Of a stretch of DNA of 64,000 nucleotides, positions 2,878-47,728 are shown in pieces. The DNA is from Streptomyces sp. NBC_01341 (lineage in GTDB: Bacteria > Actinomycetota > Actinomycetes > Streptomycetales > Streptomycetaceae). The stretch lies in contig NZ_CP108364.1 of the NCBI RefSeq assembly GCF_035946055.1, forward strand, positions 5,022,001-5,086,000. The letters run 5' to 3'. The position numbers and the translations under genes are program-made. How positions within the stretch are numbered: position 1 is the stretch's first letter; every line of letters begins with the position of its first letter. The notes beneath the pieces are model-generated. The model saw only the letters and a list, made by a program, of their open reading frames with translations. It was not told the origin of the DNA and ran no database searches.

Positions 2878-2998
2878 AAGTCCAGCCTTCGGGCGGAGAC
2901 CTTCACGAAAACCGCCCCATACCCCGCTCCGGACTGGTCAACTTTGTCACGGGGACACAAAGGGGTCAGGACAGCTACACATTCACAGGAGGCCGCCG

Positions 2999-3484: not shown

Positions 3485-3544
3485 CCGGGTGTACCGGACC
3501 GGGTGCACGGGCGCCGAAACGCCCGTCTCGCATCACGGGATACG

Positions 3545-3583
3545 TGAGGGATGCCCGCAGCGGGCGCACTACCCTGCGGGCAT
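3545..3583 (+). promoter_or_regulatory. proA promoter with flanking inverted repeat; leaderless start
   Basis: TACCCT (3570-3575) lies six bases before the proA ATG, the usual layout of a leaderless streptomycete transcript. A loose -35 (TGAGGG, 3545-3550) is 19 bp upstream. ATGCCCGCA (3551-3559) and TGCGGGCAT (3575-3583) are a perfect 9-bp inverted repeat; the right arm overlaps the last base of the -10 box and the start codon. That makes it a candidate operator or mRNA hairpin. Confidence 0.45.
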
Positions 3584-4865
3584 GACCACGCTTTCGCCGT
3601 ACGACAACATGTCCCCGGTCGCCCAGGCCGCCTACCGGGCACGCGCCGCCGCCGACGACATCGCGCCACTCCCGCGCGCGGCGAAGGACGACGCCCTTCT
3701 GGCGATCGCGGACGCGCTCGAGGTGCGCACCGGCGAGATCATCGAGGCCAACGCCGAGGACATCGCGCGGGCCCGGGAAGCCGGGACGAGCGAGTCCGTC
3801 GTCGACCGGCTGACGCTCACCCCGGAGCGAATCCGCGCCATCGCCGCGGACGCCCGGGACGTGGCCGCCCTGCCCGACCCGATCGGCGAAGTGGTCCGCG
3901 GCTCCACCCTTCCGAACGGCATCGACCTGCGCCAGGTCCGGGTACCGCTCGGGGTGGTCGGCATCATCTACGAGGCCCGCCCCAACGTGACGGTCGACGC
4001 CGCCGCTCTGTGTCTCAAGTCGGGCAACGCGGTGCTGCTGCGCGGCTCCTCGTCGGCGTACGCCTCGAACACGGCTCTCGTGCGGGTTCTCCGTGACGCG
4101 GTGGGCGGCTCCGGTCTCCCGGCGGACGCGGTGCAGCTCGTGCCGGGGGAGAACCGCGACTCGGTGCGCGAACTGATGCGGGCCCGCGGCCTGGTCGACG
4201 TGCTCATCCCGCGCGGCGGCGCTTCCCTCATCCGTACGGTCGTGGAGGAGTCGACCGTCCCCGTCATCGAGACCGGCACCGGCAACTGCCACGTGTACGT
4301 GGACGCGCAGACCGATCTCGGCATGGCCGTCGAGATCCTGGTCAACTCCAAGGCGCAGCGCCCGAGCGTCTGCAACTCCGCCGAGACCCTCCTGGTCCAC
4401 AAGGACATCGCCGCCGAGTTCCTGCCCCTGGCCCTCGACGCCCTGGCCGGCGCGGGTGTGACGGTGCACGGCGACGAGCGGGTCCTGTCCTACGCCGAGG
4501 GGTCCAAGGCGACGGTGGTGGCGGCGACGCCGGAGGACTGGGAGACCGAGTACCTCTCCTACGACATCGCGGCCGCCGTCGTGGAGTCACTGGAGGGTGC
4601 CGTGGCGCACATCAGGCTCTGGTCCTCCGGCCACACGGAGGCGATCGTCACCACCTCGCAGGCCGCGGCCCGCCGGTTCACCCAGCTGGTCGATTCCACG
4701 ACGGTGGCCGTGAACGCGTCCACGCGGTTCACCGACGGCGGCCAGTTCGGCTTCGGGGCAGAGATCGGCATCTCCACCCAGAAGCTCCACGCCCGGGGCC
4801 CGATGGGGCTTCCGGAGCTGACATCGACGAAGTACATCGTCACGGGGGACGGTCACATCCGTTAG
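3582..4865 (+). CDS. proA: Gamma-glutamyl phosphate reductase
   Basis: NADPH-dependent reduction of glutamyl-5-phosphate to glutamate semialdehyde, the second step of proline synthesis. The 427-residue product is normal for the family. It belongs to the aldehyde dehydrogenase fold: [33 protein letters not shown] is the cofactor-binding region, and [18 protein letters not shown] holds the catalytic cysteine. Near the end are [28 protein letters not shown] and [14 protein letters not shown] chose ATG 3582 because a -10 box sits six bases before it. An upstream in-frame start at 3441 would overlap the preceding gene and add unrelated sequence. Confidence 0.97.
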
Positions 4866-23379: not shown

Positions 23380-25415
23380 ACAGCACCGATGTGCACGGGG
23401 AATCGGGATCTCGGCTGGGAGCCGCCCACCCGCAGCAGGAAGCTCCGGCCGATCTCCGGCTGGTGCCTCCCGCGCTGGCGGCGTGGGGAGCGGCAGCGGT
23501 GGCTCTCGGCGCGCCCGGCCGTTGGGCGGCGGTGGGAGCCGTTCTCTGCGCCTGCGCGGGCGTGTGCCTCCTCGCCCGGTCCCGAACCGCCCGGTCCCGA
23601 ACCGCGGGAGGGCCCGCCGACGGGTGGCCCCTGCGGGCGAGTTCGCGGTGGACGGCGCACTCCGAGGGGGCGCCTCCGCGGGTAATCCCGCGGCGGGCCG
23701 CGCACTCCGACACACCCCGGCAGCCGACGGGCCCCGCGGGGTGGGTGCGGCGCGCCACGCCGCGTGCCACCGCCGCTGCCGGGATGCTCCTGTGCGCCGC
23801 CGCCGGCACGGCTGCGGGAGGGCTGCACGGAGCGGATTCCCGCAGCGGGCCCGTCCCGGGGCTGGCGCAGGTGTATGCGAGCGTCGAGGCCGACGTGACC
23901 CTGACGTCCGACCCGCGACAGACCCGCCCCCGTGTCCAGGGTGATCACAGCACGCCCGTATCCCTTCTCATCGACGCCGAGGTCACCCGGCTGACGGCTC
24001 CCGACGGGCGGGTCACCGCACTCCGTACCCCGGTTCTCGTCATGGTCGCTCCCGGTCGGGCGGTCGCGAACTGGCGGCAATTGCTGCCCTCGACCCGGCT
24101 CCGCGTCAGCGGGCGCCTCGCACCACCGCGTCACGAGGGTGAACGCATCGCAGCCGTTCTCGGTATCGACGCGGACGAGCCACCGAGGACGAGTGCCGGA
24201 CCGACTTTCCTCCAACGTGGTGCGGGGCGACTGCGCTCCGGCCTCCGGGAGGCCACCGACGGGCTCGGCCCCGACGCCCGTGCTCTGCTGCCCGGGCTGG
24301 TGGTCGGAGACACCTCCCGTGTCCCGCCCGACCTGCACGACGCCTTCAAGGCCACCGACCTCACCCACCTGCTCGCGGTTTCCGGTGCCAACCTGTCCGT
24401 GTTGCTTTTCCTCCTCATCGGGCCACCGGGCACGGCCCTGCGCAGCGAACGTCGCGGACTGGCACCCAGGCTGGGGATCTCGCTGCGCATGACTGCCGTC
24501 CTCGGCGGGACCATCGCGCTTGCCTTCGTGATCGTCTGCCGCCCCGAACCGAGTGTCCTGCGCGCGGCGGCGTGCGGTCTGATCACCCTGCTCGCGATCG
24601 GAACGGGACGGCGCAGATCGCTGATTCCCGCACTCGCCGCGGCCGTTCTGCTCCTGGTGCTGTACGACCCGTGGCTGTCCCGCAGTTACGGATTCCTGCT
24701 CTCCGTGCTCGCCACCGGGGCGCTGCTCACGCTGGCCCCGCGGTGGAGCGGTGCGCTGCAACGACGCGGGGTCCCGGCCCGGCCGGCCGAGATGCTGGCG
24801 GCCGCCGGAGCCGCCCAAGCGGTCTGTGCGCCCGTGGTCGTGGTCCTCGCCTCACGGGTCAGCCTGGTGGCGATCCCCTGCAATCTGCTGGCCGAGTTCG
24901 CGGTGGCGCCTGCGACGGTCCTCGGTTTCGCCTCACTCGCCGCGGCCCCCCTGTGGATGCCGGCGGCCGTGGGACTGGCCACGGTTGCGGGCTGGCCCGT
25001 CAGCTGGGTCGCGTACGTGGCCCGTACCGGGGCGGCCCTTCCTGGGGCGGAGGCGGACTGGCCCGGTGGCTGGCGCGGTGCCGCCCTGCTGGCCGTCCTC
25101 ACCGTCGTGCTGCTGCTCTCCGCCCACCGTCTGGCCCGTCACCCGTGGCTCTGCTCGACTGCCGCGCTTCTGCTCGTCCTGGCGGTATGGAGACCGGTGC
25201 CACTCACCCGGCTCATGACGGGCTGGCCGCCTCCCGGCTGGGCTTTCGCCCTGTGCGACGTCGGACAGGGCGACGCCATGGTGCTCGCCACGGGGGAGGG
25301 TTCGGGGGTGGTCGTCGACGCCGGCCCCGAACCACGCCTTGTCGACGGGTGCCTGCGCGACCTGGACATCACCCGTGTTCCCCTCCTGCTTCTCACCCAC
25401 TTCTTCTCCCGATAG
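23376..25415 (+). pseudogene. comEC: comEC 5' part, interrupted by a mobile element
   Basis: Encodes 679 residues of a ComEC/Rec2 protein, the DNA-uptake channel. It keeps the N-terminal domain, the multi-helix competence domain (LLPGLVVGDTSRVPPDLHDAFKATDLTHLLAVSGAN is the hallmark) and the start of the C-terminal metallo-beta-lactamase domain (CDVGQGDAMVLATGEGSGVVVDAGP). It then reaches LLLLTHF and runs into foreign sequence giving FSR and a stop. The break falls inside the metal-binding motif that should read HxHADH. The remainder of the domain is found 21.7 kb away at 47123-47728. The channel part could still be made, but without its nuclease-like domain. It is coupled to comEA by a GTGA overlap. 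Confidence 0.92.
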
Positions 25416-25521: not shown

Positions 25522-26988
25522 GTGGATCTGTTCTTCGTCAGCCGGGCCCGTGTACAGGAACGGCCAGAGTTGTACAGCGGGGTGGGCGCGGAGGCTGTAC
25601 GACGGCTGGACTTCCGGGCTCTGCCGGATCGTCTGCCCGTGATCGTGGACGGGCAGATGCGGCCGGTGGAGCCGGCCTGTTCCTGGTTTCGGTACCTGGC
25701 CTACCTGGGGCGTGATCCGGAGAACACGCTGCGGCACTACGCGTACATCGTGCTGCGGCTGATGGAGTTTCTGGCCGAGCGAGGCCGCGAGCTGGGGACT
25801 GCGGCCGAGTCCGATCTGGTGGCCTACCGGCGGTCGCGGATCGAGTTGCAGGATGTGCCGGTGGGCGGAACGGCCTGGGACCGAGAAGCGTCGGTGATCA
25901 ACACACTGCTGGACTGGATGGTCGGCCGGGGGCTGCGGCGCACGTCACCGCTGCGGGCGGTCGGCTCCTCGAACCCGCTGTCCAGCGGGTTGAGCCGGGA
26001 CATGGACATCCGGCACCTGTCGCTAGGGCAGTATGTGTTTTTCCGGGACATCGGGTTGGGCGGGCAGACGCTGGGTGGCGAGGTCGATCGGTCCTTTCGC
26101 GGCTGGGCGCCGAACCGCAGCCGAGCAGCTGCGGACCTGGGGCTGATGACCGGGATGCGACCACAGGAGTGGTCGACGGTGCTGCTGCCGGAGCTCGCGG
26201 TCGGGATGCGGCGGGCCGGAGAGGTCGTGCAATTCGACCTCCAAGCATGCGCGAAATACAAGAAGCACCGCACCGTCTTTGTCCCGCGCGACGCGCTGAC
26301 CTCGGTGGACCGGTTCTTGCTGATCGAGCGGCCGGAGATGGCCGAGGGCCTGGTCCGCACGCTTGAAAGGCGCCATCGCGAGCTGCTCGTGGTCAGCGAG
26401 ATCGACTACGCGCGCGGCCGACTGAGGGGGTGCTGGCAGGGCAGGGAACGGCAATTTACCTGGTCGGCGATGTCGCCGAGGCTGCGGCGGGTCACAGTCC
26501 ACGAGGGACCGGCCGGGCTTGAGCCTCTGGCGGTGTTCATCGGACACGGCAGCCTGATGCTCACCTCATCGTCGTGGGACCGAATCCGCTGCCAGGCATG
26601 GGACCGGATGACGACTGTCCGGGACGACGTTCTGGCCCCTCAAATCCCCCTGAAACGCTATCGATTCCACGATCTGAGGCACACGTTTGCCCTGCGGCTT
26701 TTGGACTTCTTGATGCGGCGGGCGGCCGAGCGCGAGCGGTCGGTAGTCCGGGCGGGCATGGCGACGCTCGCCGAGCATATTGCCTTCAATCCGCTACTGA
26801 TTGTCAGCCGCAGACTCGGTCATGCGAGCCCAGCCACGACCTACGAGTACTTGCGCTACCTGGAAGACCCGATGGCCTACGTTGACGCCGTGTTCGCCCA
26901 GTGGGCGGCGAGCGATGGGGACACTTACGCGGACATCGCCCTGCGGACCATGGATGTTGAGGAAGCCGGTCATGCCACGCCGCGGTGA
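25522..26988 (+). CDS. Tyrosine recombinase, first of trio (TnpA-like)
   Basis: A 488-residue integrase with a complete catalytic set: Arg213 in LMTGMRPQEWS, a lysine near 248 (KYKKHRTVFVP), His383-x-x-Arg386 in FHDLRHTFALR, His434 in RRLGHASPATT and a tyrosine nine residues later (Tyr443). The N-terminal 180 residues form the SAM-like core-binding part. GTG 25522 has a strong ribosome site (CGGAGGGG). It is the first gene inside the element and reads inward from the left end. Its last 17 bp overlap the next recombinase gene. Among the three it is the best candidate for strand cleavage. Confidence 0.92.
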   Translation: MDLFFVSRARVQERPELYSGVGAEAVRRLDFRALPDRLPVIVDGQMRPVEPACSWFRYLAYLGRDPENTLRHYAYIVLRLMEFLAERGRELGTAAESDLVAYRRSRIELQDVPVGGTAWDREASVINTLLDWMVGRGLRRTSPLRAVGSSNPLSSGLSRDMDIRHLSLGQYVFFRDIGLGGQTLGGEVDRSFRGWAPNRSRAAADLGLMTGMRPQEWSTVLLPELAVGMRRAGEVVQFDLQACAKYKKHRTVFVPRDALTSVDRFLLIERPEMAEGLVRTLERRHRELLVVSEIDYARGRLRGCWQGRERQFTWSAMSPRLRRVTVHEGPAGLEPLAVFIGHGSLMLTSSSWDRIRCQAWDRMTTVRDDVLAPQIPLKRYRFHDLRHTFALRLLDFLMRRAAERERSVVRAGMATLAEHIAFNPLLIVSRRLGHASPATTYEYLRYLEDPMAYVDAVFAQWAASDGDTYADIALRTMDVEEAGHATPR

Positions 26989-28891
26989 GCGAAGCCGGGA
27001 CTTCCGGCACGACGACCCTGCCCTTGGTCCGGCGCGGATCGGGGTGCGGCAGGTGGTCACGCTGGAAGCCAATGGGAAGAAGAGCGTTCTGCGGTTCGAC
27101 CCGTCGCGCTTCGCCTGCCAACTGCTGGCGCAGGAGCTGGCGGACGAGTGGGCGGAATATGTCGAGGTGGCTGCTCGCCGGACGGGCACGGCCATCTTCC
27201 ACCGCCAGAGCATCACCCTCTTTTGCGAGTTCGTTGACGCGCATCTGCCAGGGCGGGCTCCGACGGCGTCTTTGGGCGGAGCGGACCCGGATCTGGCTGA
27301 GGTGCTGCTGGCCTGGGAATACTCGCTGCCGGCCCGGTGGCCTCAGGGGTCGACGCGTCCAGCGTCGCTTGCGGCGAATCTCCGCATTCTGATCAGCCGG
27401 CGTCAGCGGCATTCGGACCGGGAGGTCGCTGAGAGGCTGGGACGGGTGGCCGCAGACCAGCACGGGCTGTCCTGGGGCGCCTCGAACGAGCTGGACGAGT
27501 ACTCCCGCAAGGACAAGGCCGCGCTGGTCAGGGCCGCATGGGAAGACGTCAGCCGGCTCAGTAAGCGGCTGGAAGCCGGTTGGGCGATGGTCGCTGCCGG
27601 GGGCCATCCTGCGGAACGCGGCTGGTCCCGTATGCCTGACCTTCTCTGGGCCCTATCTCATCAGGCTGTCTCACCCCGGGAGATGGCCGCGAAAGTTGTG
27701 TTCCCCTTGTCGCCGGAGCTGCGGGCGCTCATCCCGGAGTACGTCAAGGTCACTGGATCGAGCAGTGGAATGCGCTGCTACTTCCTGGTCCGCGGCCTGC
27801 TGCATCAGCTCTATCCCAACGGTCGAGACCTGCATGCCTTCCGGGTGCTCTTGGTGGCCGCGACAGGCCATGCCCCGGAGGAGGTAACAGGTCTGTCTGA
27901 TGAGTCGGTGGAGTTCACCGCAGGCGGCGTCCGGCTGACCATGACGAAGAACCGGGCCCGCAGGATTCACCGCAGGGCCTTCAGCCGGGTCGACAGGGCG
28001 ACTGAGGTTGAGCACGTTCACGAGTACGCGGACCGGCCTCGCCTGGAAGTGTCGGAGATCGTCCGGCGGCTGATGGACGTGACCGCGCCGCTGCGTGATC
28101 TGTATGGAAAGCGTCCCGCGCCGCTGTTCTTGCAGGGGACGCTGCCGACGAGCACGTGGGAGTTCACCGTCAGCCAGGGGCGACTGCGGCTGTTTCAGGA
28201 CTGGGTGAAGGCGGTGGGGCTCGAACTGGAGGGCCCGGCCGACATCCGCCGGCTGAGGAAGTCGACGAAGGTGGAGAAGGCCGTCGCCTTCGGTGGCCGC
28301 ATCGCGGACATCGCAGACGACCACCACGAGGAGACGTTCCGCGGCCACTATGCGCAGGGCACCACACTGCGGGTGATCTCCGGACAGGTGATCACGGCCG
28401 CTCAACAATCGTGGTTTGAAAAAGCCATCGCGGGCCCGGTCGTCGTGGACACCACGGCCGAGGCGGCTCTCCACCAGGCGGATTCACCAGCGTTTGGTGA
28501 ACTCGGACTGAGTGCTGGGCAGGTCGAGGACTTGCGAAGCGGGGCTCTGGAGATGGGGGTGACTAGCTGCCGTGATCCGTTCGACTCGCCCTTCTCCCGC
28601 TCCGGTGATCTCTGCTCGGTCGCACCGTTGCGCTGCCTGGAATGCCGCAATGCCTGGATTCTCCCCTCCCACCTGCCCCAGCTGCTGCTGTTCGCCGACC
28701 ACCTGGACCGGTTGCGCACCCGACTGAGCCCGATCCACTTCCACACCCTCTGGGAGCAGACCGCCGCCAACCTGGCGGCGGTCCTCGCTGACCGGACGGA
28801 GGCCGACATCGCAGCGGCCCGTCGGCACATCGCTGACGGCACCGCCACCTTGCACCTTCCCCTTGCTGCACGAGCGGAGTTTGATGCATGA
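26972..28891 (+). CDS. Recombinase-like protein, second of trio (TnpB-like), box I arginine missing
   Basis: A 639-residue protein with the fold cues of a phage-type integrase in its second half. The block aligned with box I reads AATGHAPEEVTGL, with alanine (about residue 301) where the first catalytic arginine should be. DIRRLRKSTKVEK (about 425-437) occupies the HxLR region, and FRGHYAQGTT contains a candidate tyrosine (about 460). Near the C terminus is a cysteine cluster (CRDPF, DLCSV, LRCLECRNAW) that probably binds zinc. ATG 26972 follows GAGG and overlaps the first gene; the stop overlaps the third as ATGA. It may be a structural partner in the synaptic complex rather than an active enzyme. 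Confidence 0.85.
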   Translation: MPRRGERSRDFRHDDPALGPARIGVRQVVTLEANGKKSVLRFDPSRFACQLLAQELADEWAEYVEVAARRTGTAIFHRQSITLFCEFVDAHLPGRAPTASLGGADPDLAEVLLAWEYSLPARWPQGSTRPASLAANLRILISRRQRHSDREVAERLGRVAADQHGLSWGASNELDEYSRKDKAALVRAAWEDVSRLSKRLEAGWAMVAAGGHPAERGWSRMPDLLWALSHQAVSPREMAAKVVFPLSPELRALIPEYVKVTGSSSGMRCYFLVRGLLHQLYPNGRDLHAFRVLLVAATGHAPEEVTGLSDESVEFTAGGVRLTMTKNRARRIHRRAFSRVDRATEVEHVHEYADRPRLEVSEIVRRLMDVTAPLRDLYGKRPAPLFLQGTLPTSTWEFTVSQGRLRLFQDWVKAVGLELEGPADIRRLRKSTKVEKAVAFGGRIADIADDHHEETFRGHYAQGTTLRVISGQVITAAQQSWFEKAIAGPVVVDTTAEAALHQADSPAFGELGLSAGQVEDLRSGALEMGVTSCRDPFDSPFSRSGDLCSVAPLRCLECRNAWILPSHLPQLLLFADHLDRLRTRLSPIHFHTLWEQTAANLAAVLADRTEADIAAARRHIADGTATLHLPLAARAEFDA

Positions 28892-30957
28892 ACCGCACCG
28901 TCCCCAGCTCACTGGTCACAACGGCCTTTGGCATCGACGAGCCCGTTCTGGGCTCGCACCCTCTCCTGCCGGGCGCGATCAGTCCCGTCTTTGGACAGCA
29001 CGACGAGTGGAATCTCAACGGGGCGCTGCGGCGCCCGGCCAACTTGCACCCGGCTGATTGGAAGATGAAGTTCAACGGCTTTAGTGGCCTCTGGAATCTC
29101 CGGGCGCGCGAGCTGGCCATGATCGCGTTGAATCCGCGGCATCCCAGGATGATGGCTGCGGGCATCCCCGCACCCCGGCGGCCGGTCAAGGCGCGGACGG
29201 CCATCAAGATGCTCAGCGCTTTGCGGGGTCTGGAGGCATGGGCGACGGAGCGGAGACTGCCGCACGACTTGGGGGCCTGGCCGGAGCACCAGTTGCACGT
29301 TCGTGTGGCCGAGCTGCGGGAGGAGCTGAGCCTCAGCACCGTGGTGAGTCACGTCAAGTTAATCCGTGAGCTTGAGCGTTGCGGCCCGCTGCTGACCGAC
29401 GGCGGACTGACCTGCGATCCCTGGCCGGGAATGTCCGCGCGGGCGGTCGCGGGTTCCACATCGGACGGTCGCGGAAGGTTGTCGACCCCGGTCATTCCGC
29501 CGCAGGTGTGGTTCCCGCTAATCCGAGCCGCCTGGACCTACATCAACAAGTTCGCCCCGGACATCCTGCGAGCCGAGGAGCGCTACCGACAACTTCAGAC
29601 AGAAGCGGTGAACTCGTCGGTGGGGGCGGAGAAGCGACTGCGAGCCTGGCTGGCCACGCCGGGGAGCTCCGTCCCGATGCACCACGAGTCGAAGCCGTCC
29701 CGGATCACGGATGCAGGCACGGTCTACTGGAATCTGCTGTCCCTGCTGATCGGCATCGACGCGCGGGCGCACGTCTTCAGCAACATCCGGGCCCTCCGCC
29801 CGATTGTCCAGGAGGCGGTGGACCGCGGGCAGTGTGCGACGGCGAGCCTGCTGAGTGAGTACACCCAGGTCGAACGCGCTGATGGCACCTTGGGCGGCTG
29901 GAGCTGGGGGATCGATCTCCGCGGCCTGGCGCGGGAGATCCAGATGCTCCGGGTCGCCTGCTACATCTTCGTCACCGCGTTGAGCATGATGCGCGACTCG
30001 GAAGTCCAGGAGGTTCTCAAGGGCTCGGTGGTCAAGCACTTCGGGGCGCCGGCCGTGGTCTCGGCAGAGGTCAAGGACGAGGAGGACTTTCCGCGCAAGC
30101 ACTGGTGGATCATCGAGCCGGTCGCCCGAGCGCTGGCTCTGGCCGAGGCGATCACCCCGCACTCCGAGCGACTGTTCACTGGACTCAACGGCCAGATCAG
30201 GAACGCGGAAAGGTTCACTGCCGCCGCGGGGATCAAGGCGTTCGTCGAGCACGTGAACGCCAGAACCGCAGTCAACGGGCTGGAGCCCATCCCACCCGAG
30301 CGGGTCGCCCCACACATGTTCCGCAGGACCATGAGTATGCTGACCGACCAGTTCCCTGGGTCCGAGATCGCCCTGGGCATCCAGCTGAAACACGTTGCCT
30401 CACGGGCCTTGGCCAACCGCACTACCCAGGGCTATGCAGCCTCTGCGGCATCCTGGGCCAAACACCTCGAAGGGGCGATCGAAGCCGCCCGCTTCCGGGG
30501 CCTGCGGGATCTTTTCGACGTCCACAAGGAGAACGAACCGATCGGCTTCGGCCCCGGCGCTGAGCAGCTGACCCGGACCTTCGACAAGATCCGCGAGTCC
30601 GTCGCGGCCCAGGACGGTGACGCGACGGTCGAGCACGCGCTGCTGCGGCAGGCCCGCGTCTCCATCCGCTTCGGCACCTTGAACAACTGTTTGTTCGACG
30701 CCGCCAACCCGGCTGGCGCCGTTTGTCTGGAGAACGCCGTGATCCCGCCCGGACACACCGGACCCCTGCCGGACCGCTGTCGCCCAGACCGGTGCGGCAA
30801 CAGCATGATCGGCCCCCAACACGTCGAGATCTGGGACAGCGAAGAACGGTCTCTCACCAAGCTCCTGGACACCCGTCGCCTGGCCTCCGGCCACCGCGCG
30901 GCCCTCGAACAACAGCGGGACGAGGCACGGGCCGTTTTGCGGAAGGCCGGACGATGA
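28888..30957 (+). CDS. Tyrosine recombinase-like protein, third of trio
   Basis: A 689-residue protein. The catalytic-domain signature is present: Arg369 in LSMMRDSEVQ, His476-x-x-Arg479 in VAPHMFRRTMSML, His502 in LKHVASRALAN and a tyrosine at about 516 (TTQGYAAS). The spacing from the last histidine to tyrosine is longer than usual. Cysteines near the C terminus (NNCLFDAANPAGAVC, DRCRPDRCGN) suggest a zinc site. The start overlaps the previous stop as ATGA, and its own stop overlaps the next start in the same way. All four genes are thus one translational unit, as expected for proteins needed in fixed ratio. Confidence 0.88.
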   Translation: MNRTVPSSLVTTAFGIDEPVLGSHPLLPGAISPVFGQHDEWNLNGALRRPANLHPADWKMKFNGFSGLWNLRARELAMIALNPRHPRMMAAGIPAPRRPVKARTAIKMLSALRGLEAWATERRLPHDLGAWPEHQLHVRVAELREELSLSTVVSHVKLIRELERCGPLLTDGGLTCDPWPGMSARAVAGSTSDGRGRLSTPVIPPQVWFPLIRAAWTYINKFAPDILRAEERYRQLQTEAVNSSVGAEKRLRAWLATPGSSVPMHHESKPSRITDAGTVYWNLLSLLIGIDARAHVFSNIRALRPIVQEAVDRGQCATASLLSEYTQVERADGTLGGWSWGIDLRGLAREIQMLRVACYIFVTALSMMRDSEVQEVLKGSVVKHFGAPAVVSAEVKDEEDFPRKHWWIIEPVARALALAEAITPHSERLFTGLNGQIRNAERFTAAAGIKAFVEHVNARTAVNGLEPIPPERVAPHMFRRTMSMLTDQFPGSEIALGIQLKHVASRALANRTTQGYAASAASWAKHLEGAIEAARFRGLRDLFDVHKENEPIGFGPGAEQLTRTFDKIRESVAAQDGDATVEHALLRQARVSIRFGTLNNCLFDAANPAGAVCLENAVIPPGHTGPLPDRCRPDRCGNSMIGPQHVEIWDSEERSLTKLLDTRRLASGHRAALEQQRDEARAVLRKAGR

Positions 30958-31367
30958 GCGACGCGAGAGTCTCGGCCAAGGCCGAGCACAAGCTCCGCGC
31001 GGCCATGGACCGGCTCGTGTCGGGCAAGCCGCAGCACAGCGACGGCCGGCTCACGAAGAACAACCTCGCCCTGGAAGCGGGCGTCAGCCCAGCCACGATG
31101 TTCCGCGCGAAGGCGGTGCTGGCCGACTGGGACACTCATATAGACACCCACGGCAGCCTCACTCCTGGCGAGGCCCGCCGAGACGCCGACAGCAACGACC
31201 TCCGCCGTCAGCTCGCTGCGGCCAAGAAGGAGATCACCGAGCTCAACCGGCAACTGACCGCCGCGATTACGGTCGTCGCCTCGCTCTACCACGACAATCA
31301 GCTGCTTCGGACCGAGCACCAAGCGGAGGGCAACATCTTCGAACTGCCGCCTCGACCGAAGAGCTGA
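30954..31367 (+). CDS. Small HTH and coiled-coil accessory protein of the recombinase operon (TnpC-like)
   Basis: A 137-residue protein coupled to the third recombinase by ATGA. The N-terminal half has a helix-turn-helix look (LTKNNLALEAGVSPATMFRAKAVL). The second half is a charged helix with heptad leucines (DLRRQLAAAKKEITELNRQLTAAITVVASL), likely a coiled coil. Small proteins of this design close the recombinase operons of Tn554-type elements, where TnpC influences the efficiency or orientation of transposition. That role here is by analogy. Confidence 0.75.
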   Translation: MSDARVSAKAEHKLRAAMDRLVSGKPQHSDGRLTKNNLALEAGVSPATMFRAKAVLADWDTHIDTHGSLTPGEARRDADSNDLRRQLAAAKKEITELNRQLTAAITVVASLYHDNQLLRTEHQAEGNIFELPPRPKS

Positions 31368-33484: not shown

Positions 33485-33656
33485 CAGTGATCACTAATCG
33501 GACGGACATATCCGATCGATCGACGAGGAGGTCAAGGAGGCATCCTCTAGCCATCACCCCGCCCTTCGAGGCGCTGGGCTCGACTCGCACCGCTGGTCTG
33601 TGAGTGAACCAGCGTGCGCAAGTCACCAAAGTGGGCAATGGATGCACAGAAATTAA

Positions 33657-33697
33657 GCTAGCGTGCTATGTTGATCTACCTTCGATAAGTGGCTAGC
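33657..33697 (+). promoter_or_regulatory. Paired GCTAGC sites upstream of the XRE/ImmA gene pair
   Basis: GCTAGC occurs at 33657-33662 and 33692-33697, 35 bp apart, in an unusually AT-rich region just before the ribosome site of the next gene. The pair could be an operator for the XRE protein encoded downstream, by analogy with self-regulated toxin-antitoxin operons. Confidence 0.3.
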
Positions 33698-33710
33698 CCT
33701 TGGAGGGGTC

Positions 33711-34517
33711 ATGGCTGATGGGGTCACGCCGTCGCAGTGGGCCGTCGAGCGATTCGGTGAGCAGGCCGCAGAGGTGACGAAGCGCGTCGTCACCGGGCTG
33801 GCGCGCGGTCAGCGGTCAGCCCGCTTGGTCCAAGTGGCAGCTAAGAACGCGGGAGCCAAGGATAAGCGGCCCTACGGCAGCATGTGGGCTACGCGCTATA
33901 GCCAGGTCATCGAACAGTTCGACTTGGCGGACATGCCTGGGTACGAGGCGCGTAAACCCAAGGGGGCGTCGTACAGCCTGGCCGTAATCAACGGGTGCGT
34001 ATTGATCCCATTTCGACACGCCACGTCGCTGAAGGAGCCGATCTCCAGTGCAAAACTAAGCACGAAGATTCCCAAACAGGTGTCCCGGGATAACGGCGTG
34101 GAGCCGGCGCAGACGCTGTTCGACGTCCTCGGCTCCTCCGAGGTGGTGACGGATCCGTCGGTAGCCGATGCGGCCTCGGCGGCCAGGGCCGAGAAGTTGA
34201 CGGTGGTGTACATCGCGTACGTCGCTAACTCTGACAGCGACGAAGTTCTGGGCGCCTGGTGGGGCACTCCGAACTCACTGGAAGACGACGGCACGATGTC
34301 GTGGTCACCCGAGCGGCTCGACATGAGCATCGCAGTCGCGCAGTCCTCCAGTGACGCTCGTGGCAGCCTTCACGGCGCGGGCACTGACATCCCCACGCGC
34401 GGTTTCGCCGAGGGTGCCATTCCTTCGTTGGTCGTCACTCCACGCTCCGAGGTCGCCCACCGTCCGTCCGCTGAACGAGAACCAGCCATTCCTGAGGCAG
34501 AAGACAGTAATGAATGA
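33711..34517 (+). CDS. Unknown partner of the XRE/ImmA-IrrE protein (268 aa)
   Basis: A 268-residue protein with a good ribosome site (TTGGAGGGG). The N-terminal part is helical and basic (VTPSQWAVERFGEQAAEVTKRVVTGLARGQRSARLVQVAAKN). A strand-rich middle part contains INGCVLIPFRHATSL and VYIAYVANSDSDEVLGAWWGTPNS. The last 50 residues are disordered. I do not recognise the family. Its stop overlaps the start of the XRE/ImmA gene by 8 bp, a tight coupling typical of two-component toxin-antitoxin or defence modules, in which this would be the candidate effector. Composition is lower in GC than the backbone. Confidence 0.75.
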   Translation: MADGVTPSQWAVERFGEQAAEVTKRVVTGLARGQRSARLVQVAAKNAGAKDKRPYGSMWATRYSQVIEQFDLADMPGYEARKPKGASYSLAVINGCVLIPFRHATSLKEPISSAKLSTKIPKQVSRDNGVEPAQTLFDVLGSSEVVTDPSVADAASAARAEKLTVVYIAYVANSDSDEVLGAWWGTPNSLEDDGTMSWSPERLDMSIAVAQSSSDARGSLHGAGTDIPTRGFAEGAIPSLVVTPRSEVAHRPSAEREPAIPEAEDSNE

Positions 34518-35736
34518 GGATAACCAGCCGACACTGTTCACCACGTCTGGACGCGGATTGCGTAAAGGCCGCGTCAGCCTGGGGCAGCCCTCACCCGCGG
34601 CGGTTCACGAGGTATTCGATCCCGCCCGGCTAACTCAGGCGCGCAACCTTGTTGGGATGACTAAGAGGCGGCTGGCCGACGAACTCGGGGTGACGCCGGC
34701 CGCAGTAAGCCAGTACGAGATGGGCACCAACCGACCTCGCCCAGATTTGTTGCCGCGGCTGGCTGAAACTTTGAATGTGCCGTTGACATTCTTCTTGTCA
34801 GGGCGTCCTCACGCACGGCTGGACCCCTCGGCTGCGCACTTTCGCAGTCTTCGCAGCACCCGAGCCTATCAGCGTGCCAAGGCTGTCGCGTTTACTGAGC
34901 AGGTCTGGGAGTTGACCTATGCGCTGGAGAAGCGTGTCCAGCTGCCGATGGTGGACCTGCCCGGCTTTACCGGTGGCGAGGTCCACCCGGGTACTGAACT
35001 ACCCAGTGATCCAGCCTCAGCCGCCCGAGCCTTGCGAGTTGCATGGGGGCTAGGCACCGGACCAATTACTCACCTAGTTCGGCGACTGGAAGCACACGGA
35101 ATAGTGGTGATCACTCCCCAGCGCGACGAGGATCTGCGTTCCGTCGACGCCTTTTCCACATCACACCTTCCGCGCCCGATGATCGTGCTGACACCGAACA
35201 GGACGGATGATGTCTACAGGCATCGGTTCAGCGCAGCCCATGAGTTGGGCCACTTGACCCTGCACGGCGAAGCTACTCCAGGTGACATCACTCAGGAGCG
35301 GGAGGCTGATGCTTTTGCAGCAGAATTCCTCACGCCCCGCGAGTCGATCCTGCCTGAGCTGCCTAGTCGGGCAGATTTGCACAAGCTGTCACAACTGCGA
35401 AATGCGTGGGGGGTTTCGGTACACTCTCTGCTCTACCGCTGCCGAGAACTCGGCCTCCTGTCAGACTCCTCGGCCAGTCGCGCCTACCAGCGCTTGAATG
35501 AGCTAAAGGGGCAGCCCGGATTCGCTCCGGAACCCCTGGCTGGTTTCCCTAGCGAGCAGCCCGCGCTGTTGTCTCAAGCATTCAGCCTCGCTTGCGATCA
35601 CGGTCTGTCGGTCACGGAACTTGCACGTGAGCTGGCCTGGACAGTTCCTCAAGTTCGGCAGATTCTCGGCATAGAGGGAGATCGTCCGATCCTTCGACTG
35701 GTCAGTAGCGCGCCCCAAGCATCTGAAGCCGTGTGA
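34510..35736 (+). CDS. XRE helix-turn-helix protein with ImmA/IrrE metallopeptidase domain
   Basis: A 408-residue protein. An XRE-type HTH lies at about residues 42-96 (LTQARNLVGMTKRRLADELGVTPAAVSQYEMG). The C-terminal half is an ImmA/IrrE (COG2856, M78) zinc peptidase with HELGH in SAAHELGHLTLHG and a following EREADAFAAEFLTP. A short extra helical segment closes the protein (LSVTELARELAWTVPQVRQILG), probably a second HTH. Proteins of this build cleave or sense partner regulators in mobile elements and serve as antitoxins in Xre-COG2856 modules. It is co-translated with the unknown gene upstream. Confidence 0.85.
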   Translation: MNEDNQPTLFTTSGRGLRKGRVSLGQPSPAAVHEVFDPARLTQARNLVGMTKRRLADELGVTPAAVSQYEMGTNRPRPDLLPRLAETLNVPLTFFLSGRPHARLDPSAAHFRSLRSTRAYQRAKAVAFTEQVWELTYALEKRVQLPMVDLPGFTGGEVHPGTELPSDPASAARALRVAWGLGTGPITHLVRRLEAHGIVVITPQRDEDLRSVDAFSTSHLPRPMIVLTPNRTDDVYRHRFSAAHELGHLTLHGEATPGDITQEREADAFAAEFLTPRESILPELPSRADLHKLSQLRNAWGVSVHSLLYRCRELGLLSDSSASRAYQRLNELKGQPGFAPEPLAGFPSEQPALLSQAFSLACDHGLSVTELARELAWTVPQVRQILGIEGDRPILRLVSSAPQASEAV

Positions 35737-36023
35737 CTCCGGGCTGAAGTGCTTTGAAAGGAAGCTTCAGCCCTGGCATCCGATTCTCATTGTGGCGCTG
35801 CTAGTCGTCGAGAGGATCGCCCGCATGCTGGTCGTGTTGGGCCGCACCCAGGGATCTGCAACCTGTGCCCTTCTCCGCCTGCCCCGAGTCTTGGAAGCTC
35901 TGAGCCTCTTCCTTCCGGTCTGAACTCGCCGATCCATAGTCGCGGTGTTGAAAATCGACCTCGGCGGACGCCTCGATGGCGCGATGATGGGGCGAGTAGA
36001 TCAGATCGAAGGGGGCGCTCAAC

Positions 36024-38549
36024 GTGCCGTTGGACTGGAGCAAGGTTGACTCTGGTGAAACCGAACCGCTGCTGCGACCACGGGACATCTATGTAGCAGG
36101 CCCCCGGCCGTGGGCCTATCTGCGTCATGAGCAGGGCGAGGTGCTGGACCGCTGGTTCGAGCGTCGCACCGACAGAGATGTAGTGATCAAGCAGAACACG
36201 GGCGGTGGCAAGACTGCTGCGGGCCTGTTGATCGCCCAAAGCACATTGAATGAAGGTGTTGGGAAGGCCGTCTATCTCGCAGGAGACACTCACTACGCAA
36301 CCGGTCAGGTTCGGGAGGAAGCCGCGAGGCTCGGGCTCGCGACGGTCGTGGATCCACGAGATCCCGCCTTTCAGGCGGAGCGATCCATCCTCGTGACCAA
36401 CTTCAAGAAGTTGTTCAATGGCATGTCCGTATTCGGAGTAGCTGGTAGCAACCGCCCGACCATGCCGCTCGGCGTCGTCGTCATCGATGACGCTCACGCA
36501 GCCTTGACGACCGTCACTGGCCAGTTCCAGCTCTTCATCCCCCGCGAACACAAGGTCCACGACACGCTCGTGGCCATGTTCGCAGGCGAACTGAAGGATC
36601 AGGCCCCCAAGCATTGGCGTGATGTCCAGGCCGGCGACTACTCCGCACTCGTGCGCATCCCCTTCTGGGCCTGGTCCGATCGGCACCAAGAGGTCATGGA
36701 TCTACTCCACCCACACGGAGATGATGAAACCTTCAAGTATACCTGGCCGCTCGTTGCGGACGTGCTGCCTTTGTGTGCCGCGTCCGTGACAAGCCGCGGC
36801 GTGGAGATCCGGCCTCCGTGCCCTCCCGTCAGCGCGATCCCGGCCTTCACCAATGCTCAGCGCCGCGTCTACCTGACAGCAACCCTGGCGGACGACAGCG
36901 CTTTGGCCACTGTCCTGGATGCTGCTCCGCCACTTCTGTCGCGTCCGGTCACCCCGGGCAGTGCCGCAGACCTGGGCGACCGACTGATCCTCGCGCCGCT
37001 TGCCCTTAATCCGGCACTGGATGAAGAAGCAGTGCGCCGCATGGCTCAGCAGTTTGCACACGGTGACCGAAACGGTGACGGCGTGCCTGACAGCAAGCCG
37101 GTCAACGTGGTCGTCATCGTGCCCAGCGCGAATCGGGCTACTGCCTGGAAGCCGTACGCCGACCGGACTCACGCGGCGAACACCTTGGAGGCCGGGGTCA
37201 AGGAGCTGCGCGAGGCTGAGCACGTCGGACTCGTCGTACTGGTGAACAAGTACGACGGCATCGACTTGCCCAACGACGCCTGCCGACTACTCATCCTCGA
37301 TGGGGTGCCCCTGCCCTTGGACGCTGCCGAACGTCGGGAGGCATCTCTTCTTCCCGACAGCCGCTTCCGGGTGGCCCAGGGTATCCAGCGGATCGAGCAA
37401 GGCATGGGCCGTGGGGTGCGGGACCGAGAAGACTACTGTGCAGTTCTTCTCATGGGTGCCGAGCTCGGTCTCGCCATTCGTGATCCCCGTCGTCTTGATC
37501 TCTTCTCCCCCGCGACCCGTGCGCAACTGCGAGTAAGCCAGCGTGTCGCTGACATGATCGCCGGCGAGGGACTGCCGCAGGTGAGGGAAGCCATCGATGC
37601 CTGTTTGGAACGCCAACAACACTGGCTGACCCCGAGTCGGCGGGCCCTGGCCGATGTCCAGTACGAGCAAGTGAGTAACGTTCGTGCTGAGGCCACAGCT
37701 GGCCGAGAGGCGTTCGACCTGGCCTGTGTTGGACAGTACCGGGCCTCGGCGGATCGCCTTCAGGTCGCCATCAACAGCCTGGAGGACAAGGCACTACGCG
37801 GCTGGCTGATGGAACAGAAGGCGACTTACCTTCATCACGTAGACCCCCTTGCCGCACAGAACGTACTGGCAACCGCAGTCATGGAGAACCCAAGGGTTCA
37901 GCGGCCGGTCGACGATGTGACTCCGCGCCGGATCAGGGCTACGGCTGTCCAGGCCCGTGCCGCTTCCAAATTCCTCGGGCGGACCTACTCAGACGGCGTC
38001 CAATTGGTGCTCGGCGTCCGTCAGATTTTCGACCGCATCGTGTGGGGCGATGAGGAGAGGGCGGATGACGCTGAGGCTGCATGGGAACTGTTGGGATGCC
38101 ATCTCGGGTTCCGTAGCGATCGGCCTGACAAGACGTTCAAGATCGGCCCGGACAGTCGGTGGGCCATGACGAGCGATCACCACGGCATCATCGAGCTCAA
38201 GACAGGCTGCACCACTAACTCGATCTCCAAGGACGATATTGATCAGCTCGGCGGGAGCGTTCGGTGGCATGAATCGATCGATCCCAGCGTCCGGGCTACT
38301 CCGGTCATGCTTCACCCAAGCAGCATGCTCCATGAGCAGAGTCCGCCTCTGCCCGGCCTGCGGGTGGTTACGCCGTCGAAGCTCGACGATCTGAGGGAGG
38401 CCGTGGCAAGCGTTGCCACGGCCTTGGCCGCCGGCCAAGGCAGATGGGCCGATGAGCAGGCCGTCGCTGCCGAGTTCGCCCGGGCCAAGCTCACTGCGGG
38501 AGCGCTCCTCGCTACCTTCGCGGAGACGGCGCGACCGGCGCCGGCGTGA
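36024..38549 (+). CDS. DExH-box helicase fused to a PD-(D/E)XK nuclease domain
   Basis: An 841-residue protein. Superfamily 2 helicase motifs are clear: Walker A QNTGGGKT (57-64), DDAH box VVVIDDAHAAL (151-161), YLTATLADDS (283-292), a motif V-like LVNKYDGIDLPND (406-418) and motif VI QGIQRIEQGMGRGVRDRED (452-470). The last motif and the GGGKT loop resemble the XPD/DinG branch. The C-terminal part reads LGFRSDRP, IGPDSRWAM and HGIIELKTG, giving a plausible nuclease triad Asp710, Glu724 and Lys726, with a later IDQLGGSVRW. It starts with GTG behind AAGGGGG. Such a fusion fits unwinding plus cutting of invading DNA. It may act alone or with the Shedu-like nuclease 600 bp downstream. Confidence 0.82.
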   Translation: MPLDWSKVDSGETEPLLRPRDIYVAGPRPWAYLRHEQGEVLDRWFERRTDRDVVIKQNTGGGKTAAGLLIAQSTLNEGVGKAVYLAGDTHYATGQVREEAARLGLATVVDPRDPAFQAERSILVTNFKKLFNGMSVFGVAGSNRPTMPLGVVVIDDAHAALTTVTGQFQLFIPREHKVHDTLVAMFAGELKDQAPKHWRDVQAGDYSALVRIPFWAWSDRHQEVMDLLHPHGDDETFKYTWPLVADVLPLCAASVTSRGVEIRPPCPPVSAIPAFTNAQRRVYLTATLADDSALATVLDAAPPLLSRPVTPGSAADLGDRLILAPLALNPALDEEAVRRMAQQFAHGDRNGDGVPDSKPVNVVVIVPSANRATAWKPYADRTHAANTLEAGVKELREAEHVGLVVLVNKYDGIDLPNDACRLLILDGVPLPLDAAERREASLLPDSRFRVAQGIQRIEQGMGRGVRDREDYCAVLLMGAELGLAIRDPRRLDLFSPATRAQLRVSQRVADMIAGEGLPQVREAIDACLERQQHWLTPSRRALADVQYEQVSNVRAEATAGREAFDLACVGQYRASADRLQVAINSLEDKALRGWLMEQKATYLHHVDPLAAQNVLATAVMENPRVQRPVDDVTPRRIRATAVQARAASKFLGRTYSDGVQLVLGVRQIFDRIVWGDEERADDAEAAWELLGCHLGFRSDRPDKTFKIGPDSRWAMTSDHHGIIELKTGCTTNSISKDDIDQLGGSVRWHESIDPSVRATPVMLHPSSMLHEQSPPLPGLRVVTPSKLDDLREAVASVATALAAGQGRWADEQAVAAEFARAKLTAGALLATFAETARPAPA

Positions 38550-38650
38550 CCTTGTCTGGGCGTGCGGTATAGGCGTGGGCGGTGCCACCGGGATCCCGAA
38601 GCCGACGGCTATCTGGGGCAGGGTGTCGTGCTTGCGCAGGTACACCAGAG
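38550..38650 (-). pseudogene. Frameshifted remnant of an IS transposase N terminus
   Basis: On the minus strand YLRKHDTLPQIAVGFGIPV (38586-38645) continues, after a frameshift at about 38586, with GTAHAYTARPDK. Together this matches the HTH region of an IS5-type streptomycete transposase. Only about 35 residues survive. It starts right at the end of the helicase gene. Confidence 0.6.
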
Positions 38651-38727
38651 CGACGAGCGCGCGCGTTGGTGCGGCGGGAGCTTGCAGCGGTGGTCACCCT
38701 CGCGGGTGACGATGAGCAAGGTTACCC

Positions 38728-38837
38728 GCTCGACCTGCGCGTGAGGCAGGTCGAGCGCGACAGGATAGGCAACCAATGAGGCACCTGCGCTGGTGAGTTG
38801 AGACCTCGAATGTCTCCCTCAACGGCACAGGTGCCTC
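38728..38837. repeat. Two strong inverted repeats between the helicase and Shedu genes
   Basis: GCTCGACCTG (38728-38737) and CAGGTCGAGC (38747-38756) form a 10-bp hairpin with a 9-nt loop. GAGGCACCTG (38778-38787) and CAGGTGCCTC (38828-38837) are a second perfect 10-bp pair, enclosing an inner GTTGAG/CTCAAC pair. They follow the IS fragment and may be IS ends, a terminator for the helicase gene or a structured RNA. Confidence 0.45.
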
Positions 38838-38899
38838 GTGCGTTGCGCCCTCGACGCCGTCACTCCATCGGTGACCACTCTGAAAACGCTCACGAGAGG

Positions 38900-39034
38900 A
38901 TGCGCCGCGAGAATGCCGAGAAGCGCAAGCAGGAAGCCCAGTGGTCGCGGGCGGAGTGGTTCGACACGCGGGAGCGGAAGATGGAGGACTTCGCCCGTCT
39001 GTGGGACGGGACCGGGGCCGGGAACGAACAGTGA
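38900..39034 (+). CDS. Possible small helical protein (44 aa)
   Basis: ORF beginning MRRENAEKRKQEAQWSRAEWFDTRERKMEDFARLW, rich in charged helical residues, with a GAGAGG lying very close to the ATG. It is the only protein-like sequence between the IS remnant and the Shedu gene. It may be a gene tail rather than a complete gene. Confidence 0.3.
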   Translation: MRRENAEKRKQEAQWSRAEWFDTRERKMEDFARLWDGTGAGNEQ

Positions 39035-39127
39035 ACCGCCTGCCCGCGCATCTCTCACCTGACGACGGCAGGCAGGCCCGATCGTTCGGGAGATGGAAAG
39101 TCCCGATAGGCCGACGCGTGACTGCTC

Positions 39128-39133
39128 TACCCT
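39128..39133 (+). promoter_or_regulatory. -10 box of the Shedu gene
   Basis: TACCCT 13 bases before ATG 39147 predicts a transcript with a 5' leader of only a few bases. No ribosome site is visible between them, so near-leaderless translation is likely. Confidence 0.4.
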
Positions 39134-39146
39134 CCATCCTGGACAC

Positions 39147-41216
39147 ATGACGTCCAGCAACCCCGCCCCGACACATGCGCAGCCATCGATCACAATGGTG
39201 ACGCGGCACGACATCTTCAACTACCTGCGCGGGATATCGAGCCCCTGGTGGGGGAAGCTGGACGAGGTTGCGTTCCTGGAGGTCCTATACGACCTGGACC
39301 GACCTACGGCCGCGGACAGCCGACTCCCGACTGTCCGCGCCGACATACAGCAGCACCGGTTTAACAACTGTGACCTGCCTGACGACTGGATCTTCGAGGA
39401 CTCCCGGCTGGAGCTCTCCGACGGACCGGACGAGGTGCTGCTCGCCTTCCTCGCACGAACCGTTCATCCCGAGGTCGCGGCCGACGTCGAGGCGGCCACG
39501 AAACAGGTCGAGGAGCTGAACCGGCTGCTGGCTCCGGACGGATGGCGCCTGCGTGCCTACGAGTTCCTCTCTGGCCGCCCTATCTACACGCCGGTCCGAC
39601 TACCGCCCACGGGCCTGTTGGTCCCGCTGCCGCTGAACGACGACGACACCAGCAAGCTCGACTTGGTCCTCGGGCAGACCTACAGCCTCTTGGACTGCGC
39701 CGGCGAGGAGACCGCACGCGACCTGCTACGCACCGCTGTCCTGACCCTGCGCCGCGATGGTGGCTTCATCCACCCCATGCCTGGTGACAGTTGGACAGCG
39801 GACACCTACGAGGCGGTCCTGACTGTGGAGCGCGAGCTCCAGCCCGCCTGTACCCCGGAGATGAAGGAGGTGATTTGGCGGACCCTGGAGCACCTGCTCA
39901 GCCAGCTCGGACGTACCGACGTCCTGGACCTCGTGGTTGAAGGTGATACCCGGCCTCTGCCCAACATCTCGCCGGACTGGCGGACTCAGGCTGCGGCACC
40001 CGCTACCCCCATCGTTCGCGGTCTCCGCCTCCCCTTCTCCACTACCGAGTTCGACGTCACCTGCGGGGACTTCGCCGATCTGGAGATCCGCGGCTCGCAG
40101 GACAGCAGCGGGTTCCACTACCTCTACGACACCCGCGCACGCCGGATGATCACCGACTTCGTCCTCGACGACCGGCCCCGGGTGGCCACACTGTGCAACG
40201 TCACCATCATCAAGAAGGGCGACACCTTCACGCCGAGGATCAAGCTGTGGAAGAGGGATAAGAGGAAGGCAGGGGAGGTCTCCGCCACGCAAACGATGCC
40301 CGATAACGGGGCCACCCGGGCTGTCAAAGCGCTCGTCGACACCGGGGACGTCCACGAGAACTTCTGGAAGGTCATCAACTTCCTCCAGGGTTGCACGGGG
40401 CTGAGCACGCCCGGCGGCTCCCTCCATCTCGTGGCCAGGGACGAGGTCCACCTGACCCAGCTGCTGACCGGCCAGGACCGGACGATGGTTCTCGGTGCGG
40501 TCAGGACCGCAATCGGCGGTGGGCTCACCGAGGAGGACATCCGGCTGATCAGCAACCGCAGAGAGCAGCTCCAGAGGTTCGAGCAGCTACTGACAGATCC
40601 GGACTATTTCCAACAGGAGGAGGGTCTGGCAACGACGCGCGGGCCGGAAGCGGTCTGGCAGGCTTTCTTCGAGGCGAACCAGTGGATCTTCGGCTACGGA
40701 CTCAACCTCATCGCCTGCGAATCCATCGACGACGGCAAGCTGGAGCGCATCACCACCGGTGCGGACATATTCGGCGGAGCCGGGAAACGTATCGACGCCA
40801 TCATGCGTTCCAAGGGCCTGATCAGCAGCATGCTCTTCTGCGAAATCAAGACCCACGACACGGAGCTACTCGCCAAGACCCCGTACCGCGCAGGCGTCTA
40901 CCAGGCCTCCAAAGAACTGGGCGGCGGCGTGGCGCAGGTGCAGAAGACCGCCAGCAAGGCCCAGCAGCACATCTCCCGCGAATTCCTTACCCGCATCTAC
41001 GACGACGACGGCACCCCGACCGGCATCGAACTGTCCACTACCCGGCCCCGGCAGATCGTGGTGATCGGGAGTCTGCTCGAGTTCACTCACCATGGCGCCG
41101 TGAACCCGGAGAAGATCAACTCCTTCGAGCTGTACCGGACATCGATCCAGGACGTCGAGATCATCACGTTCGACGAGCTCTACCAGCGAGCGTGCTTCAT
41201 CGTCGAAGATCGCTAA
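39147..41216 (+). CDS. sduA: Shedu-type defence nuclease with AbiJ-like N-terminal domain
   Basis: A 689-residue protein. The C-terminal 200 residues match the Shedu (DUF4263) nuclease domain: VWQAFFEANQWIFGYG, GKRIDAIMRS (Asp550), FCEIKTHDTELL (Glu566, Lys568) and YRAGVYQASKELGGGVAQVQK. Shedu proteins are single-gene anti-phage systems whose domain is a PD-(D/E)XK nuclease. The N-terminal 130 residues (HDIFNYLRGISSPWWGKLDEVAFL, FLARTVHPEV, GWRLRAYEFLSGRPIY) resemble the AbiJ N-terminal domain type 3 seen in abortive-infection proteins, probably a sensor. A large middle region (about 155-500) is not recognised. It carries its own promoter-like box, so it can work as an independent unit. Confidence 0.88.
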   Translation: MTSSNPAPTHAQPSITMVTRHDIFNYLRGISSPWWGKLDEVAFLEVLYDLDRPTAADSRLPTVRADIQQHRFNNCDLPDDWIFEDSRLELSDGPDEVLLAFLARTVHPEVAADVEAATKQVEELNRLLAPDGWRLRAYEFLSGRPIYTPVRLPPTGLLVPLPLNDDDTSKLDLVLGQTYSLLDCAGEETARDLLRTAVLTLRRDGGFIHPMPGDSWTADTYEAVLTVERELQPACTPEMKEVIWRTLEHLLSQLGRTDVLDLVVEGDTRPLPNISPDWRTQAAAPATPIVRGLRLPFSTTEFDVTCGDFADLEIRGSQDSSGFHYLYDTRARRMITDFVLDDRPRVATLCNVTIIKKGDTFTPRIKLWKRDKRKAGEVSATQTMPDNGATRAVKALVDTGDVHENFWKVINFLQGCTGLSTPGGSLHLVARDEVHLTQLLTGQDRTMVLGAVRTAIGGGLTEEDIRLISNRREQLQRFEQLLTDPDYFQQEEGLATTRGPEAVWQAFFEANQWIFGYGLNLIACESIDDGKLERITTGADIFGGAGKRIDAIMRSKGLISSMLFCEIKTHDTELLAKTPYRAGVYQASKELGGGVAQVQKTASKAQQHISREFLTRIYDDDGTPTGIELSTTRPRQIVVIGSLLEFTHHGAVNPEKINSFELYRTSIQDVEIITFDELYQRACFIVEDR

Positions 41217-45151: not shown

Positions 45152-45472
45152 TCAGGTATGATTTATTGCATTTAGGTCAGAGGCGAACATCGTTGCCGCC
45201 GCCTTTAGCACGGTGTTCTTGCGTCGTAGTTCCATGATCTCTTTTTGTAGAAGACGGATGAGCTCCGCGTCGGTGATTTGAGATGCAGTGCCACCCCGGC
45301 CTTCTGTCTGAGCCTTTCTCACCCAATGCCGCAAAGCTTCGGGATGAATGCCTAGGAGCTCTCCCACCTCCTGTACCACTCCTGAACGGTCTGGTGATCT
45401 TTCCCTCATCTCAAGAACCAGTTGCACCCCGCGTTCGATGACTTCCTGTGGATACTTGCGGTGAGCGGGCAT
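45152..45472 (-). CDS. IS3-family transposase OrfA, orphan
   Basis: A 106-residue IS3 OrfA: RKYPQEVIERGVQLVLEMRE at the start, the HTH LLGIHPEALRHWVRKAQ, then the leucine-zipper-like ELIRLLQKEIMELRRKNTVLKAAATMFAS. The product ends shortly after that block. No OrfB catalytic subunit follows on the minus strand, so the element cannot transpose by itself. Composition is clearly lower in GC than the backbone. Confidence 0.8.
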   Translation of the reverse strand: MPAHRKYPQEVIERGVQLVLEMRERSPDRSGVVQEVGELLGIHPEALRHWVRKAQTEGRGGTASQITDAELIRLLQKEIMELRRKNTVLKAAATMFASDLNAINHT

Positions 45473-47084: not shown

Positions 47085-47125
47085 GCACTCTCATGAGAGT
47101 GCACGACGGTGGAGAACACGTGCAC
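47085..47125. other. Right junction of the comEC element with 18-bp palindrome
   Basis: GCACTCTCATGAGAGTGC (47085-47102) is a perfect 18-bp palindrome sharing CTCTCAT and GAG with the imperfect palindrome at the left end. GGAGAA (47111-47116) mirrors TTCTCC at 25404. CACGTG (47117-47122) follows as the flanking hexamer, then host comEC resumes at CACGCC (47123). The palindromes stand about 20 bp from each host junction. Confidence 0.65.
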
Positions 47126-47728
47126 GCCGACCACGTACGCGGTCTCCCGGGCGTGCTGCGGGGCCGCGAGGTCGGCGCGATCCAGACGACGGTGCTCGAC
47201 GAACCACCCGAGCAGGCCGCCTTCGTGAAGCGGACGGCCGCGGCGGCCCACATCCCGCTGGTCCGGGCCGCTCCGGGTGAGCGGCGCAGGGCAGGCCCGG
47301 TCGACTGGCAGGTGCTGTGGCCCGCCGCGGCCGGGCGGGGCGCGCTGCCGGCTCCGGTGACCGAGGAGCCGAACGACTCCAGTGTCACGCTCCTGGTCCG
47401 GTCGGGAGGGCTGACCCTGCTGCTGCTCGGTGACCTCGAACCCCCTTCCCAGCAGGGGGTGTTGCGTGCCTTTCCGGCGCTACCACGGGTGGACGTTCTC
47501 AAGGTCGCGCACCACGGCTCCGCACATCAGGACTCCGCCCTGCTGCGCAGCGCCCGCCCTCGGCTCGCCCTCATCAGCTGCGGCGTGGACAACCCGTACG
47601 GGCATCCCGCCGCCCGCACGCTCGAAGCGCTCGAAGCGACGGGGGCGGAGATCCTGCGGACCGACAGGGACGGTCCGATCGCGGTCACGGGAAGCGGTAG
47701 GGGGCTTGCTGCGGCGGCTCGGTCATGA
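47093..47728 (+). pseudogene. comEC: comEC 3' part with element-derived start
   Basis: Encodes the rest of the ComEC metallo-beta-lactamase domain (HADHVRGLPGVLRGR, SVTLLVRSGGLTLLLLGDLEPP, VDVLKVAHHGSAHQD, LALISCGVDNPYGHP). The native C terminus of the gene is intact. The element supplies ATG 47093, and the reading frame MRVHDGGEHVHADHV restores the complete metal motif H-V-H-A-D-H. A separate domain protein of 211 residues could therefore be made if transcribed; the ribosome site is weak. Otherwise it is a dead fragment. Confidence 0.85.

Follow-up and report, generated by a model that had tools for sequence, protein, structure and literature searches.

Hna (helicase-nuclease abortive infection), for which the founding paper is reportedly that of Sather et al. 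2023, is the family of the helicase-nuclease SMa2245 of Sinorhizobium meliloti. The S. meliloti protein, solved as a monomer (10UJ) and as a dimer (9YKJ) in a 2026 paper (PMC13381803), is a Mg2+/Mn2+-dependent 3'-5' exonuclease of single-stranded DNA (ssDNA) with no unwinding activity; its nuclease is inhibited by ATP binding through the dimer and is activated by the single-stranded DNA-binding protein (SSB) of phage 5A, the outcome being abortive infection (PMC13381803, PMC12445080). Nuclease activity is lost or strongly reduced in the K729A and PDE mutants, while the RQ mutant has lost its ATPase and gained nuclease activity (PMC13381803, PMC12445080). Phage resistance is restored when hna is re-introduced alone (PMC12445080), and the dimer loop T30/D31/P34 of the HEL1 domain has been termed highly conserved (PMC13381803). 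Here we have analysed a stretch of 64,000 nucleotides (the window) from Streptomyces sp. NBC_01341 (contig NZ_CP108364.1, positions 5,022,001 to 5,086,000), in which the gene at 36024-38549 on the forward strand very probably encodes an actinobacterial Hna protein, that is, a stand-alone abortive-infection effector of phage defence. The original prediction had read this gene, from the sequence alone, as a single-gene combination of an XPD/DinG-like helicase and a PD-(D/E)XK nuclease. The combination is borne out by Helicase_C_2, PDC-S28 and Hna matches and by a structural model; it is not new, since it is that of the already characterised Hna family.

In a phmmer search, residues 33-770 of the window protein align with residues 35-775 of the solved S. 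meliloti Hna (10uj/9yhn/9ykj; E=8.3e-98), and a profile of the Hna family, which contains rows from the S. meliloti clade, matches the window protein with 1-821 on 1-838 (E=1.3e-296). The PADLOC profile PDC-S28 (PDLC04986) is the best profile for the window protein (E=3.6e-277) and also for S. meliloti Hna (E=0); thus, PDC-S28 and Hna are one family. PHROG 16128, labelled 'unknown function', likewise gives a match (6e-168), and both of these full-length matches are to profile names without a described function. Together with a Helicase_C_2 match (PF13307) on residues 405-477 (E=3.7e-9), the PDC-S28 and solved-Hna matches indicate that the open reading frame is far from a chance one. It encodes 841 residues from a GTG start, which is common to close homologues (M-P/A-L-D/N-W) and is preceded, about 11 bases upstream, by the ribosome-binding-like run AAGGGGG.

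Two alignments were used to follow the residues of both enzymatic parts: one of 42 rows (the window protein, S. meliloti Hna as read from pSymA, and 40 further homologues) and one of 27 rows, in which homologues from virus contigs are included. In the helicase part, the Walker A motif TGGGKT (residues 59-64, 36198-36215) has K63 and T64 invariant in 27/27 rows, as are D155, D156 and H158 of the motif II DDAH (residues 155-158, 36486-36497); T287 of the motif III TATL (residues 285-288, 36876-36887) and Q459, R463 and R466 of the motif VI QGMGRGVR (residues 459-466, 37398-37421) are invariant in the same alignment. The nuclease residues lie in GPD (708-710), with Pro709-Asp710 at 38148-38153, and in IIELKTG (722-728), with Glu724-x-Lys726 at 38193-38201, all on the forward strand. 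These four residues align one-to-one with P712, D713, E727 and K729 of S. meliloti Hna, and R34 and Q37 align with its ATP-site residues R36 and Q39. The proline is kept in 40 of the 42 rows, whereas Asp710, Glu724, Lys726 and Gln37 are invariant in 42/42 rows and, likewise, throughout the 27-row second alignment. The frame, the motifs and the residue numbering of the putative triad had all been given exactly in the original prediction, and the triad proves to be the published Asp713/Glu727/Lys729.

The predicted structure points in the same direction. An AlphaFold2 model built on 27 sequences (a four-row attempt, which reached a predicted local distance difference test score (pLDDT) of 39, was discarded) has a mean pLDDT of 89.5 and a predicted template modelling score (pTM) of 0.85. 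The Hna monomer (9yhn) ranks first in Foldseek (template modelling score 0.89/0.92, E 1.7e-62), and VIA-align superposes 802 residues of the two with a Z of 47.6 and a root-mean-square deviation of 2.4 Å, covering model residues 17-839; the next other family is CasDinG, with a Z of 18.7 over helicase residues only. Residues 677-763 (38052-38312, forward strand), which match the Hna monomer structurally, are modelled as a helix (677-693), three strands (697-699, 711-716 and 719-725), a second helix (736-752) and a last strand (757-763), an order which, in the model, is that of a PD-(D/E)XK core. Along the chain, an XPD/DinG-like superfamily 2 (SF2) helicase core, whose motifs are intact, is followed by a helical linker and then by the PD-(D/E)XK nuclease at the C-terminal end. 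Both findings that could have overturned the initial reading, a model without a nuclease fold or homologues without Glu-x-Lys, failed to appear.

In the family tree, the window protein pairs with a homologue from Streptomyces alkaliphilus (78% identity), then with proteins from other Streptomyces and from Gordonia (57-63%), with full support, while the S. meliloti clade forms a separate supported branch. Matches at E<=1e-190 occur in 14 of 393 genomes of a single genus, that of the window strain, where a further, distant group (about 20% identity) also keeps the D/E/K residues. Several homologue copies reside on plasmids, including linear ones, or near contig ends. Across phyla, homologues are present in 224 plasmid records and about 30 virus-like contigs, a distribution that fits a mobile defence gene. 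Two Hna homologues (L009 in genome G068, L010 in G384) are situated within 0.9-8.5 kb of contig ends, and the chromosome contig of G068 has two equal-scoring copies, one towards either end, as would be the case within terminal inverted repeats.

The window gene thus resembles S. meliloti hna in its whole-length fold, helicase motifs, catalytic P-D and E-x-K, ATP-site R/Q, lack of an iron-sulphur cluster, single-gene character and mobile location; its host differs in being a high-GC Gram-positive bacterium. The following points weigh against the assignment: no more than 27% identity is shared with the characterised protein; the papers searched for a Streptomyces Hna yielded a review only and no functional test; and the autoinhibitory T30/D31/P34 are not kept, the window protein having two gaps and Tyr32 instead. 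This last difference falls within residues 24-37 (36093-36134, forward strand), a segment that contains the counterpart of the S. meliloti dimer loop. Among the 42 rows, D31 occurs together with P34 in four only (S. meliloti, Rhizobium, Pseudomonas and Lactococcus pMRC01), and the window clade has a conserved loop of its own, P29-W30-x-Y32-L33-R34. As far as the aligned residues tell, T30/D31/P34 is a subtype trait which most of the Hna family lacks. Dimerisation may still occur through a loop made of other residues, and the difference does not refute the Hna assignment.

Because its catalytic and ATP-site residues are the same as those of S. meliloti Hna, we infer the same nuclease chemistry for the window protein, and by this analogy the best reading is that of a 3'-5' exonuclease of ssDNA which ATP keeps inactive and a phage trigger, such as an SSB, sets free. 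The motor domain would bind ATP at the cellular ATP level and so block the nuclease; this inhibition would be lifted by a factor of the phage, probably an SSB that is made in the course of replication; the freed nuclease would then degrade DNA from single-stranded 3' ends, so that phage replication would fail and the cell would die or cease to grow. Since the dimer-loop residues are not conserved, the S. meliloti type of control cannot simply be assumed for the window protein. More tentatively, most Hna proteins, including this one, would do without the T30/D31/P34 loop, and the branch may use another interface or another trigger. The single-gene defence system foreseen at first thus corresponds to a published one, with defence being the probable role of the window gene, but the term 'DNA-targeting' has to be qualified, as the S. 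meliloti enzyme attacks 3' ends that are single-stranded, acts through abortive infection and is not a sequence-specific restriction enzyme.

The gene might instead be part of a multi-gene unit, given that an open reading frame (orf33711), a helix-turn-helix (HTH)-ImmA gene, hna and a Shedu gene follow each other on the same strand. The first two overlap (33711-35736) directly upstream of hna, and the ImmA protein matches PADLOC RmrA (9.5e-100), a component name of the RosmerTA system (PMC10440598). These two genes occur together, within about 1.5 kb and without Hna, in six other genomes (L054, L055, L056, L058, L059 and L064), which identifies them as a separate RosmerTA-like pair; orf33711, which has no family match in Pfam, PADLOC, NCBIfam or PHROG-type profile scans, is the candidate toxin. 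A gap of 288 bases with a stable hairpin parts the ImmA gene from hna. This hairpin (35741-35773, forward strand) is GC-rich and resembles a terminator, but has no T run (the stretch 35730-35790 folds with -22 kcal/mol, z -2.5), and was not flagged by a consensus scan; nor was a consensus sigma-70 promoter found in 33500-39300, although this consensus says little in Streptomyces. Downstream, at 39093-41216, lies a Shedu-type protein with an AbiJ_NTD3 domain ahead of the SduA_C nuclease domain. It is, like Hna, a defence nuclease of the PD-(D/E)XK kind, but it has no helicase and belongs to another gene and family. Two arrangements elsewhere speak for a link with these neighbours: in L018 and L019, an HTH-ImmA gene adjoins, in opposite orientation, the gene of a diverged Hna-like helicase-nuclease (overall identity about 20%), and the virus-like contig L081 encodes, directly upstream of an Hna gene, an AbiJ_NTD3-like protein (2380-3846) whose C-terminal part resembles a nuclease, a proximity which echoes that in the window. 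Neighbours nevertheless differ among the annotated homologue loci, none being constant, and no near relative that has several kb of flanking sequence carries orf33711, the HTH-ImmA gene or the Shedu gene, which suggests that Hna acts as a single gene, as hna of S. meliloti does. A multi-gene unit is therefore improbable.

Still less likely is a DNA-repair helicase with an exonuclease, of the DinG/ExoDinG type, retaining a housekeeping function on a mobile island. The helicase half does resemble DinG, CasDinG and XPD in its SF2 core fold (Z 15-19) and its Helicase_C_2 domain, but the likeness in sequence is weak, and the NCBIfam DinG/rad3 models score 9.5-12.3 bits against cut-offs of 247-680. 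DinG and XPD carry an iron-sulphur cluster and lack a C-terminal PD-(D/E)XK domain; the window protein has its nuclease as just such a domain and is free of cysteine from residue 63 to residue 158, the span from Walker A to motif II, hence has no iron-sulphur cluster site. Membership of the DinG/XPD repair helicases was rejected on these scores and missing cysteines. Housekeeping repair also fits poorly with the patchy presence within the genus and the location on plasmids and virus-like contigs. CasDinG of type IV CRISPR (clustered regularly interspaced short palindromic repeats) systems, which also lacks the C-terminal nuclease and has a CRISPR association, was rejected as well: the match to its model is weak (5.9e-10) and spans residues 398-477 only, and none of the other nine main genes scanned has a cas-type match. 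That hna is a decayed or inactive passenger without current function, as its place in a genomic island and in-frame stops in some relatives (G138, G304) could suggest, is scarcely credible, since its open frame is full-length and retains every motif and each of the catalytic residues.

The gene had been taken for a mobile one, and it does reside on a recombinase-bearing island of about 21.7 kb (25402-47117, ends approximate) which splits comEC. The pieces of comEC lie at 23376-25415 and 47117-47728: the N-terminal part breaks off near 25402 and the C-terminal part starts again near 47117, the insertion interrupting the THFHADH metallo-beta-lactamase motif. Other genomes of the genus have this stretch in one piece, so that, judging from the sequence, ComEC function is presumably lost in the window strain. 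No obvious direct repeat was found at either island end. The left end carries three large recombinase-like genes and one small one (25522-31367), apparently the integration module; only for the first is there a Pfam integrase match, a weak one, and the others are so called from motifs read by eye. Besides hna, the defence-type genes of the island are the RosmerTA-like pair and the Shedu gene. A lone transposase helix-turn-helix frame (HTH_Tnp_1) at 45152-45472 is probably an insertion-sequence remnant.

A published defence system that had been studied only in an alphaproteobacterium is now placed on a Streptomyces island, and three labels, Hna, PDC-S28 and PHROG 16128, are linked to each other. 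Apart from the difference in its regulatory loop, the window hna is an ordinary member of the Hna family. For the family as a whole, the catalytic residues are universal, whereas the dimer loop published as 'highly conserved' does not extend beyond the S. meliloti clade, and this raises a testable question: is ATP-held autoinhibition general in Hna, and via which contacts?
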